From: an uncultured Anaerovibrio sp.
Lineage (GTDB): Bacteria; Bacillota; Negativicutes; Selenomonadales; Selenomonadaceae
DNA length: 64,000 nucleotides
Direction of reading: 5' to 3'
Assembly: GCA_902786545.1 (NCBI GenBank)
Contig: CADACU010000002.1
Coordinates: forward strand, 25,865 to 89,864
Position numbers and translations under genes: made by a program. This document shows, piece by piece, positions 52,659 through 55,356 of the stretch. The notes below the pieces were generated by a model. It saw only the letters and a list, made by a program, of their open reading frames with translations. It had not been told where the DNA came from and ran no database searches. Every line of letters starts with the position of its first letter. Positions within the stretch are counted from its first letter, which is position 1.

Positions 52659-53387
52659 ATGAATATTGCGATTGCGGACGACCATCCTGATGATAGGAAG
52701 ATGGCTGAAGAGCAGCTGCGGCGGTATTTAACTCAAGCACATCCTGAGATTATGAAGGACCTGGTGTTGGAGACTTATTCCTCTGCCGAGGACTTGCTGG
52801 CTTCCTTCAGTCCCGGTCAATATGATTTGCTTTTGTTGGATATTTATATGGAGGATATGACCGGTATGGAGGCTGCCGAAGCCATTCGCCTACGGGATGA
52901 ACGGGTACCAATTATGTTTTTGACCAGCAGCAAGGAGCATATGTTGGATGGCTATCGGGTGTTTGCGGCTGGTTATCTGTTAAAGCCTCTGATCGCGCAT
53001 TTAAATGAGTTTGCCAAGGCTATGGACCATGTGTTTCCGGAGATAATGGCTAGCCAACGGACTGTGCTTATACCGTTTAATGGTAAGGATGTTGATGTAC
53101 CGGTGCGGAATATTATGTATGTTGACATTAACGCCCAACATAAGTTGAGTATTCATTTGCCTGATATGGTGGCCGATACGATACTTTCCTATAATCAGTG
53201 TCAGGAAATGTTGACAAAGGATAATAGATTTATTGAATGCCATCACCGGATAATACTGAATATGGATTATATTTGGCGAATGGGACAGGACGACTTTATA
53301 CTGAAGGACGGCAGCAAGGTGCCGATTAGTCAGCGCCGAAAAAAGGAAGTCAAGGCGACCTATATGCACTATATGGCCCATCGATAA
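52659..53387 (+). CDS. LytTR-family response regulator, 242 aa
   Basis: Residues 1-125 form a receiver domain with the acidic pair Asp7-Asp8 (IAIADDHPDD), phosphoacceptor Asp61 (LLLLDIYMEDMTG), MFLTSSKEH and the Lys in GYLLKPL. Residues about 140-242 form a LytTR DNA-binding domain with VRNIMYVDINAQHKLSIHL, FIECHHRIILNMDYIWRM and KVPISQRRKKEVKATY. GGAGGTGG lies upstream. The gene converges on the kinase pair at 53.4-55 kb, with only a shared terminator between them, so these are probable partners. Such regulators often control exported proteins or quorum-type systems. Confidence 0.92.
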   Translation: MNIAIADDHPDDRKMAEEQLRRYLTQAHPEIMKDLVLETYSSAEDLLASFSPGQYDLLLLDIYMEDMTGMEAAEAIRLRDERVPIMFLTSSKEHMLDGYRVFAAGYLLKPLIAHLNEFAKAMDHVFPEIMASQRTVLIPFNGKDVDVPVRNIMYVDINAQHKLSIHLPDMVADTILSYNQCQEMLTKDNRFIECHHRIILNMDYIWRMGQDDFILKDGSKVPISQRRKKEVKATYMHYMAHR

Positions 53388-53419
53388 AAAAATGCACCTT
53401 TTAATTAAGGTGCATTTTT
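53386..53419. terminator. Bidirectional terminator between regulator and kinase genes
   Basis: AAAAATGCACCTT pairs with AAGGTGCATTTTT around TTAATT, with A and T runs on the two sides. Confidence 0.92.
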
Positions 53420-53422
53420 GTG

Positions 53423-53728
53423 TTATCCTTTGTGCATAGACTGGATTACTTCTTCCTGATTTTTGATGTGCTCCAGAGCGGCAGCTGTATCACCGTCTTT
53501 TAGCAAGGCGTAGAGCAGTCGGTAATGATGCCGCAAATCATGACGCAGTACTCTGGTAGCAGTTATGCTTTCCTGAATAAGGCTGGTTTCCTGCTTTAGG
53601 GAATTAAGACGCAGCTTCAGCAAATTATTGGCATGTTCCTGCCGGGTATTGGCCTTGACTTCCCAATCGAATATCAGATAAGCAATTATCATTTGACTTA
53701 GTGTCAGAACAATGGCGAAAATCAGCAT
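53423..53728 (-). CDS. Membrane-anchored H-box (DHp) protein without kinase domain, 101 aa
   Basis: The protein has one N-terminal membrane helix (MLIFAIVLTLSQMIIAYLIF), a coiled-coil segment (residues 25-55), then TRVLRHDLRHHYRLLYALLK (His63, 67, 68) and DGDTAAALEHI, which is the dimerisation and phosphoacceptor helix of GHKL/LytS-type kinases. It stops right after, with no ATPase domain. It starts inside the end of the upstream kinase gene (ATGCTGA, seven-base overlap), with GGGAGG ten bases upstream. It could receive phosphate from that kinase and pass it to the LytTR regulator, like Spo0B. That role is inferred. It could instead be a kinase fragment. Confidence 0.8.
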   Translation of the reverse strand: MLIFAIVLTLSQMIIAYLIFDWEVKANTRQEHANNLLKLRLNSLKQETSLIQESITATRVLRHDLRHHYRLLYALLKDGDTAAALEHIKNQEEVIQSMHKG

Positions 53729-55050
53729 GGCGGTTTATCCTCCCAATACATACTTAGCCGAACCCAGCCAGTTTCCTGACTAAAGTCGGCATATCCGTCG
53801 TATTTTTCCAAAAAGTTTTTTAATGATAACATTCCCAGTCCATGACCGCTGCGGCTGGTTTTTGGCAATCCATCATCCGCAAGCTGCAGGGTGGTGTGGC
53901 AAGTATTGGCCATTTCCAATACACATTGTGATCCATTATGCTGAAGTATTAGTGTAATTTGCTTTACACCTGTTTCTTTGGCGCTGGCCAGCAGGGCGTT
54001 TTCCAACAGGTTGGCCAGCAGTACGGCCAAATCATTTTCATCGGTACCCATGTTGCGGGGAAGGTTGGTCTTATGGATAATGGTTATGCCCAAGGCAACA
54101 GCCCGGTGCAGATAAATGGAAATAGCTGCATTGATAATGGCATAATCGGTGTAGGAATCGATAGCTGCTGCTGACAGGACCTGTTCCTGTTGAGTGATAT
54201 AGGCTTGGGCTCCGGCTATATCACCCTGCTGCAGTAAAATTTTTAGTTCGGCATAAGTTTTCAGCAGATTTTCCTGCTGTTTTTTTATTTTCTCCCGGTT
54301 ATCGGCGGCCAGTAAGCGGCTTTCCTCCAAATAGGTGATTTCCTGCTTCATAATATCCGCATTGTGCTGAAGCTGTTCCTGCTCATAAATACGGTTGGAG
54401 GCATTGAGGATATAATGATAGGCCAGAAAGAAACCGATAGGCAGGAGCAAGCGGGCAATTCGTTCTTCCCAGGTATGCCAAAGCTGATCATCGTTAATCA
54501 GCACCAAATATCCGGTCACCATTACAATAGGAAGAAACGAGGTATATATTTGAACGGCAGGCCTGGTGAAATGACTATAAGCCGGTAGCAGAGAAGTAAA
54601 GCAATGACGGGCCAATGGCAGGAATAACAGGTACCATACAATGAACATTCCACTATAAAACAGCAGTACCGTAGCTTCTTCGGCGCCGACCATAAAAAGT
54701 GCAGTGGTGATGGTATTTATGCTGTGAATGGTAAAGGTCCACAGCACCGACATACCAAAGATAAAAATGTGATGCAGGATACGATTGGGCAGAGAAAGCA
54801 TAAATACTGCCTGAAAGGGTATCCAGCCCCAGAAAAGGGTGCTCTTGTAGGTAGTTACTACAATGCCGGTGCGGGAAAAAATCCAAGTATATAAAGGTAT
54901 AAATAGCAGAGCCAATATTATGAGAAACTGCCACAAACGGCGGGTGTCTGCCGCCGGCAAATCATCTCTGAAGGCGAGATAACGCAGATAAATACCGGAT
55001 AAATGCACCAATGAAAGGGATAATGCCACAAGTACAAATTCAAGTATCAT
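53722..55050 (-). CDS. GHKL histidine kinase lacking the H-box histidine, 442 aa
   Basis: The first 220 residues hold six or seven membrane helices. A coiled coil and a DHp-like helix follow (about 225-295), then a GHKL ATPase with the N-box LLANLLENALLAS (345-357) and G-box SGHGLGMLSLKNF (401-413). In relatives the helix reads RHDxRHH. Here the aligned stretch is QENLLKTYAELKILLQQGD, with Glu260 where the phosphorylated His should be, and no His between residues 230 and 314. The sequence LLQQGDIAGAQAYI aligns with LLKDGDTAAALEHI of the next gene, which has the His. GGAGGTGAG precedes the ATG on the minus strand. Confidence 0.88.
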   Translation of the reverse strand: MILEFVLVALSLSLVHLSGIYLRYLAFRDDLPAADTRRLWQFLIILALLFIPLYTWIFSRTGIVVTTYKSTLFWGWIPFQAVFMLSLPNRILHHIFIFGMSVLWTFTIHSINTITTALFMVGAEEATVLLFYSGMFIVWYLLFLPLARHCFTSLLPAYSHFTRPAVQIYTSFLPIVMVTGYLVLINDDQLWHTWEERIARLLLPIGFFLAYHYILNASNRIYEQEQLQHNADIMKQEITYLEESRLLAADNREKIKKQQENLLKTYAELKILLQQGDIAGAQAYITQQEQVLSAAAIDSYTDYAIINAAISIYLHRAVALGITIIHKTNLPRNMGTDENDLAVLLANLLENALLASAKETGVKQITLILQHNGSQCVLEMANTCHTTLQLADDGLPKTSRSGHGLGMLSLKNFLEKYDGYADFSQETGWVRLSMYWEDKPPC

Positions 55051-55209
55051 AATCTCACCTCCAAAAAATATTCTTAAAAATCATTATACTCCAGTTGAAA
55101 AAATTTTTCTTATATGTAATGAAAAAATATATATTAGGCATTTTATCCTGTTTTTATTTATTGGCAGGAATCATTTGTTTTTTGACGAATGAAGTCAAAT
55201 ATGATTTAC

Positions 55210-55333
55210 CCGGCGCTAACGGGTGCTAAGGCTCCCACCTATTAGGTGGGAGTAAAGCAACCATAAAGCTAAGGATTTATTCGACTACATTCAGATGGAG
55301 GTTAAAGCTCCATCTGAATAAGTCTCATTTTAT
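55210..55333 (+). repeat. 124-bp three-hairpin repeat element, copy 3
   Basis: This copy has the same length and hairpins as those at 751-998. The first hairpin is better paired here (ACCCG..CGGGT), the second is perfect (CTCCCACCT with AGGTGGGAG), and the third reads TTCAGATGGAG with CTCCATCTGAA, a T-A pair changed to A-T relative to copies 1 and 2. It is flanked on the left by TTTAC and ends in CATTTTAT. It lies 23 bases before the next start codon. Confidence 0.8.
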
Positions 55334-55356
55334 AGAATGAAGGGAGCCATATCAGC

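Follow-up and report, generated by a model that had tools for sequence, protein, structure and literature searches.

Two overlapping genes in the 64,000-nucleotide stretch of Anaerovibrio DNA analyzed here (the window) encode a 442-aa and a 101-aa protein that most likely form an obligate two-gene heterodimeric membrane histidine kinase. Judged by their motifs, the two proteins carry the two catalytic halves of a kinase on two overlapping genes, and the pair is kept under purifying selection.

The two subunits and their neighborhood

As read from its sequence, the large protein is a membrane GHKL kinase whose ATPase motifs are intact and whose phospho-acceptor histidine is replaced by Glu260; we take it to be of the HPK10 type. 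Its features are as follows.

53722..55050, minus strand: large subunit gene, 442 aa, with a multi-helix membrane sensor, a His-less DHp hairpin, and a GHKL ATPase domain
54166..54471, minus strand: DHp helices of the large subunit, residues 194-295 (model helices 194-274 and 278-295)
54271-54273, minus strand: Glu260 codon, occupying the position of the phospho-accepting His (alignment column)
53740..54141, minus strand: ATPase (CA) domain of the large subunit, residues 304-437 (HATPase_c_5, 44 bits)
53995-54012, minus strand: N-box of the large subunit, residues 347-352
53833-53847, minus strand: G2-box of the large subunit, residues 402-406

The Pfam domain HATPase_c_5 matches residues 339-434 at 44 bits, with a cut-off of 22, and both the N-box (NLLENA, 347-352) and the G-box (GHGLG, 402-406) are intact, with N347, E350, N351, G402, H403, and G406 invariant across 15 aligned large proteins. 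When 152 kinase ORFs, taken from the window and 100 fetched stretches, were aligned, Glu260 fell in the same column as His63 of the small protein, and the translation contains no histidine between residues 230 and 314. The domain match, the alignment, and the translation therefore bear out what an earlier note on this DNA had described, namely a sensor protein with N and G boxes, Glu260 at the H-box position, and no His from 230 to 314. The AlphaFold model (mean pLDDT 80) comprises a membrane helix bundle, two DHp helices, and an ATPase fold; the DHp helices (194-274 and 278-295) are its least confident region (pLDDT ~53-80), and its best PDB match is the AgrC cytoplasmic kinase (6e52, 6e95). 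The protein has the sensor and the HATPase_c_5 domain of a GHKL sensor kinase but does not combine histidine and ATPase in one polypeptide.

The small gene begins within the end of the large one.

53423..53728, minus strand: small subunit gene, 101 aa, with a membrane helix, a coiled coil, and a complete DHp hairpin, without an ATPase domain
53739..53744, minus strand: Shine-Dalgarno sequence GGGAGG of the small gene, inside the Trp-Glu-Asp codons at the end of the large gene
53522..53545, minus strand: H-box RHDLRHHY, residues 62-69, the same in 13/13 small-type loci
53540-53542, minus strand: His63 codon of the small subunit

The two ORFs, both on the minus strand, overlap by 7 nt (53722-53728), and the small-gene start codon (53726-53728) overlaps the reading that ends at the large-gene stop codon (53722-53724). 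The embedded GGGAGG is found in 12 of the 13 small-type loci, the window among them, and reads GGGAAGG in L083. In the model of the small protein (pLDDT 90), one helix (2-77) contains the membrane segment, the coiled coil, and DHp helix 1, and a second (81-100) forms DHp helix 2, which together make a complete DHp hairpin; the N-terminal hydrophobic helix is seen in both sequence and model. ORF coordinates and model uphold the earlier claim of a 7-nt overlap with a 101-aa membrane protein bearing the His63 H-box; the claim that this protein holds a single helix gives way to the two-helix hairpin.

The small protein had no Pfam or NCBIfam match above cut-off, and annotation can therefore miss half of such systems. 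Structure comparison of its model with the PDB returned no match, and neither the large nor the small protein matched the Pfam domains of CheA HPt (P1) or regulatory type at E values up to 1. Its best domain match is SPOB_a (Pfam) at residues 45-96, with 18.6 bits, under the cut-off of 28.1. This match speaks for a Spo0B-like relay, in which His63 would belong to a phosphotransferase passing phosphate between regulators, an idea we regard as very improbable. Related proteins have kept a sensor and sometimes also a decayed ATPase domain; beside the pair, no receiver protein other than the LytTR regulator was found; and far better SPOB_a matches occur elsewhere in the class, adjoining obg. The earlier proposal of a Spo0B-like relay reduced to one helix is likewise at odds with the full hairpin, the membrane anchor, and the relatives with a sensor. 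Because of these same features, that sensor being the same in the relatives, and because some related loci still carry the decayed domain, the small protein looks like a stripped kinase and not like a phosphotransferase fed by a regulator. Spo0B, which is soluble, also uses a DHp hairpin as its phosphotransfer module and is fed by Spo0F, whereas the small protein is predicted to be membrane-bound and adjoins its kinase half.

In six other genomes of the class, we observed a 73-79 aa protein with the motif QRHDFINH encoded immediately upstream of a gene recognized by eye as obg-like.

L025, 1414-1653, minus strand: Spo0B-like ORF
L026, 1414-1650, minus strand: Spo0B-like ORF
L028, 1426-1647, minus strand: Spo0B-like ORF
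L031, 1411-1650, minus strand: Spo0B-like ORF
L032, 1417-1638, minus strand: Spo0B-like ORF
L035, 1477-1707, plus strand: Spo0B-like ORF

All three of the proteins tested matched SPOB_a (4e-19 to 7.5e-18), and the six resemble a Spo0B pared down to its DHp hairpin. The spo0B gene is listed as present in bacilli and absent from clostridia in PMC3533761.

The neighboring LytTR regulator is the probable phosphate acceptor of the pair.

52659..53387, plus strand: LytTR response regulator, 242 aa (Response_reg 6e-15, LytTR 2e-10)
52839-52841, plus strand: Asp61 of the LytTR regulator, predicted phosphate acceptor

A LytTR regulator gene was found in 13/13 small-type loci. The convergent orientation recorded in the earlier note is correct for the window, but the gene is divergent from the pair in the 12 other loci; its presence in all 13 despite the differing orientation supports a functional linkage.

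Between the convergent regulator and small genes of the window (53388-53425) lies an inverted repeat with A/T runs (TGCACCTT...AAGGTGCA), spotted by eye and not reported by the scan, that looks like a shared two-way terminator. Upstream of a 531-aa gene, at 55205-55335, is a structured repeat of ~128 bp with two strong hairpins (z -7.0); it has 41 matches in this genome, itself included, some of them head to tail, and is a short mobile or REP-like element.

Conservation and complementarity in relatives

The small protein was recovered near full length in 8 of 60 relatives searched, its own genome counted. A scan of named genomes yielded 51 loci, 11 of which consist of the small protein and an upstream His-less kinase; these lie in Anaerovibrio lipolyticus DSM 3074, Anaerovibrio sp. 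JC8, Schwartzia succinivorans DSM 10502, Selenomonas ruminantium S137 and HD4, and six MAGs, partly the same genomes as the 8 relatives. At the other 40, a single kinase protein has both the His and an ATPase match; 2 of these come from Selenomonadaceae, and the records of the remaining 38 are titled Clostridia or other Firmicutes.

The earlier note had suggested checking whether His63 is invariant while the large protein always lacks the histidine, and 13/13 small-type loci agreed on both counts. RHDLRHHY is the same in all 13, and by the alignment the H-box is the best-conserved part of the small protein. In the 13 partner large proteins, the H column held Glu (6), Ser (3), Asp (3), or Asn (1); the N-box was present in 13 and the G2-box in 12 (altered in L082), and the large gene of L090 is short (266 aa). 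Values of dN/dS were 0.08-0.27 for both partners in eight ortholog comparisons and in those small/large comparisons that were computable, with 5 of 12 not computable and three more resting on dS near or above 1.8. By this measure both partners are under purifying selection, and the recurrence together with these values means that the pair did not arise by chance.

The genome of the window holds a second pair on contig C7 (G000:C7:17790-19972, L065), with genes for 446-aa and 292-aa proteins that again overlap by 7 nt. The 446-aa protein is a His-less GHKL protein 40% identical to the large protein of the window; the 292-aa protein combines the same membrane sensor with an intact H-box and ends before the ATPase domain. 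This pair has its own convergent LytTR gene. Since two split systems coexist in one genome, cross-pairing must be avoided or tolerated.

The orthologs and this second pair lead us to reject, and to give next to no credence to, the idea that a single kinase gene was recently broken or frameshifted or that the assembly is at fault. Intact single-gene relatives, the circumstance that would favor a break and that the earlier note had named as a refutation, do exist, and 48/48 of them have the histidine. They do not imply a recent break, because the large protein itself includes a complete DHp hairpin followed by a C-terminal ATPase domain, the small gene adds a second DHp, and the division is both old and conserved. 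Also against a break are the purifying selection and the orthologs, which occur in 8 of the 60 relatives and, type strains included, on 11 named contigs.

To place the pair among its relatives we examined loci inside and outside the family. A search of 189 family genomes gave 106 with a match at 1e-8, and 100 stretches were fetched from among the matches listed; many listed matches were omitted, including many single-gene loci of genus g17, and the family counts are therefore not a random sample. With the window, these make 101 loci, of which 50 are tandem and 48 single; the remaining 3 were set aside (L139, truncated at a contig end, and L103 and L104, on separate contigs). A class-wide search of 300 genomes gave 102 with a match; the 20 loci fetched from it outside the family, the weaker matches there being left out, comprised 8 tandem and 12 single loci. 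Regular-expression motifs missed diverged H-boxes, and the aligned H column was used instead; three partners missed by phmmer were recovered by a profile search.

Strict complementarity, with His in one gene and ATPase motifs in the other, was observed in 48/58 tandem loci: 40/50 within the family (13 small-type and 27 others) and 8/8 outside it, where three of the 8 have broken reading frames. Among the strict loci, the contigs of L138 and L147 end within the ATPase gene, ahead of the G-box, and the reading frame of L077 is broken. Single-gene loci had His in the H column in 48/48 cases within the family and in 12/12 outside it, and 47/48 of the family loci had an in-frame N-box, the reading frame of the remaining one (L098) being broken. 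In L094, L106, and L115, His is present in one gene only, and the His partner keeps the N-box with an altered or partial G-box. The regulator gene accompanies 36/50 tandem and 39/48 single family loci; in the other 14/50 tandem loci it was not found in the fetched stretch, several of these being truncated by contig ends.

Seven of the 58 tandem loci are exceptions. In L148, both genes have His and N-box, and the G-box of the first is altered; L085 (G210) has an intact first gene and an ATPase-dead second; the ATPase gene of L069 retains His in an altered context; in L102, His and ATPase are in the same gene and the partner is dead in both; and in L117, both genes have His and both ATPases are odd. 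The last two, L080 (G017:C25) and L135 (G116:C1), have no His in the H column of either gene (Q/Q and E/L), and one gene of each pair also lacks ATPase motifs. A complete-kinase partner, as expected for a pseudokinase modulator, is absent from the pair in the window, whose large protein lacks His, and is found only in exceptions such as L085 and L102.

A further observation concerns genus g19, where the first genes of L102, L103, and L104 lack His and N-box, and the second genes of L102 and L104 keep both with an altered H-box, SHEL. The first gene appears to encode a conserved pseudokinase partner: the doubly dead copy in L102/L103 has a dN/dS of 0.14, from which it follows that a conserved partner need not be a phospho-acceptor.

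The small protein might instead be a regulator of the large one (a phosphatase, inhibitor, or anchor), with phospho-His chemistry dropped or placed on another residue. The doubly dead L102/L103 copy lends this some support, as do L080 and L135, which keep both genes without His in the H columns and whose persistence shows that such pairs can survive without a canonical phospho-acceptor. Against it stand an H-box identical over 8 residues in 13/13 small proteins and the complementary loss in 48/58 loci, and we judge it improbable.

Origin of the split

In related pairs, alignment and motif content show that the two proteins derive from a single GHKL kinase by tandem duplication, one of them being His-less and the other lacking a working ATPase. 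Stages of this loss persist in living genomes. L085 is intermediate, with a whole first gene beside an ATPase-dead second, and a decayed ATPase domain is still attached in L069, L085, L120, L242, L244, and L250 and partly in L094, L106, and L115. These sequences can be arranged in a putative series from a whole first copy, through a dead-but-attached ATPase, to the 101-aa phospho-acceptor subunit.

A quick tree of 138 rows set the first genes and second genes of Group I apart. A careful tree was then built from 58 chosen rows over 283 columns that span the sensor and DHp region without the H-box columns. One branch of it (98/97) set off the 26 first genes together with 5 single-gene kinases, and another (96/97) set off the 22 second genes. 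A single clade of all ATPase-type proteins, a group that includes the intact first gene of L085, was rejected with p-AU 1e-5 and one of all His-type proteins with 6e-6; because the rows of this tree and of the 49-row tree below were picked after seeing the 138-row tree, these p-values are not those of pre-named groups. Function, as read from the motifs, does not track the first-gene and second-gene clades. The first gene encodes the ATPase subunit in Anaerovibrio, Schwartzia, Selenomonas ruminantium, and part of the rumen genus g13, and the His subunit in the remaining g13 pairs and in g50/g45 (L094 and L120, with L117 irregular). By this assignment the roles of first and second gene are exchanged within Selenomonadaceae.

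In a tree of the ATPase domain (148 columns), a branch with 95/91 support united all 25 g13 domains and 3 others, and a constraint grouping all 16 second-gene domains was weakly rejected (p-AU 0.042). On this tree, a swap of C-terminal halves between tandem copies is at least as likely an origin of the role exchange as mirror-image loss. Simple independent mirror-image loss in Selenomonadaceae is not established and receives no support from the ATPase-domain tree.

Group II (genus g11 and families f15 and f4), to which the 8 tandem loci outside the family belong, shows a split of its own, in which the His gene comes first and a Tyr (Phe in L252) adjoins the vacated His position. The 49-row tree separated Groups I and II (100/99) and placed intact one-gene kinases on both sides, the simplest account being that the split arose at least twice; a single clade of the Group II pairs was not shown (62/43). 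One common origin of the split was rejected by the trees.

The sequences suggest tandem duplication with reciprocal loss, at least twice. We consider it probable that homodimer kinases repeatedly became obligate heterodimers by reciprocal loss in tandem duplicates, in at least two deep Negativicutes lineages, with the roles exchanged in one.

For the 101-aa protein itself, gene order groups it with the second genes. In a DHp-only tree, whose alignment included the H-box columns, the small proteins could be joined to the second-gene His proteins (p-AU 0.29) or the first-gene His proteins (p-AU 0.35), and joining them to all second genes (0.007) or all first genes (0.013) was rejected; this tree gives no placement as to which duplicate, first or second, was the source. 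The second pair suggests that the 101-aa protein is a sister kinase that lost its ATPase domain and, in the lineage of the window, also shed its sensor.

Proposed mechanism and relation to known kinases

We propose that the 442-aa and 101-aa proteins would form a mixed four-helix DHp bundle, in which the membrane sensor of the large subunit would control its single ATPase domain. That domain would phosphorylate His63 of the small subunit in trans, and His63 would hand the phosphate to Asp61 of the LytTR regulator; on this model, neither homodimer could signal by itself. The earlier note had the large protein phosphorylating the small one, which then serves the LytTR regulator, and this still appears the best reading, with the two proteins as parts of one kinase on two genes. 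For AgrC and EnvZ, mutants whose defects complement each other can function as heterodimers. Since such chain complementation works only with trans phosphorylation, the pair predicts the trans mode for this kinase group. The handedness of the loop sets cis or trans phosphorylation (PMC5956149, citing Ashenberg et al. 2013).

Kinases of this family are homodimers. The ATPase and His proteins could also form separate homodimers that meet only transiently, as CheA3 and CheA4 do, which we hold to be unlikely. The His-less large protein keeps its DHp hairpin and could dimerize alone, and CheA4 and CheA3 interact dynamically (PMC3591291). Separate homodimers fit poorly with related pairs that are duplicates of one kinase and mostly keep the same membrane sensor, and the gene overlap and embedded ribosome-binding site favor a fixed 1:1 complex.

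CheA3/CheA4 of Rhodobacter sphaeroides is a split kinase of which neither protein is active alone (PMC3591291). As in that system, ATP binding and the phosphorylatable His are, here by sequence, on separate proteins. CheA3 and CheA4 are of the CheA type, with P1/P3/P4/P5 domains and a chemotaxis cluster, whereas the pair described here is a membrane GHKL (AgrC-like) kinase with DHp helices, has overlapping genes, and has relatives in which tandem duplication with reciprocal loss can be seen. Hik36/Hik43 (PilL-N/PilL-C) of Synechocystis, another split CheA (PMC7656254), likewise spreads one kinase function over two proteins; as described there, it is a CheA homolog with an HPt in place of a DHp, and its two genes are far apart, unlike the overlapping genes of the window. 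HisKA proteins without HATPase, 3.66% in SMART, have been predicted as candidate split kinases, in a passage of PMC3591291 that gives counts without a pair, partner gene, or evolution.

Defective or modulatory kinases that act on another kinase are described for the ChrS frameshift and HrrS (PMC9491836) and for RetS/GacS (PMC12189002), with DivL/CckA a further defective-kinase pair named in PMC9491836, and such partners sometimes act as a heterodimer (PMC9491836, PMC12189002). In these three systems one partner stays a complete kinase, whereas in the window neither is complete. The AgrC/HPK10 GHKL-LytTR systems share the membrane sensor, the GHKL ATPase, and the LytTR regulator, and provide the best fold match. 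AgrC has His and ATPase in one protein, unlike the pair.

A search of the open-licence literature by title and abstract found no duplicated membrane kinase divided this way, which is weak evidence. Split CheA kinases and predictions from SMART domain counts are already known (PMC3591291); what appears new is a duplicated-and-divided membrane sensor kinase. The division of a kinase into ATPase and phospho-acceptor subunits can be traced stepwise in living relatives, named strains included, so that subfunctionalization of a homodimer becomes directly testable, and the 101-aa protein offers a natural minimal phospho-acceptor subunit. If the proposal is true, these pairs would be a natural experiment on how duplicated homodimers lock together and an evolutionary test of trans phosphorylation in this kinase family.
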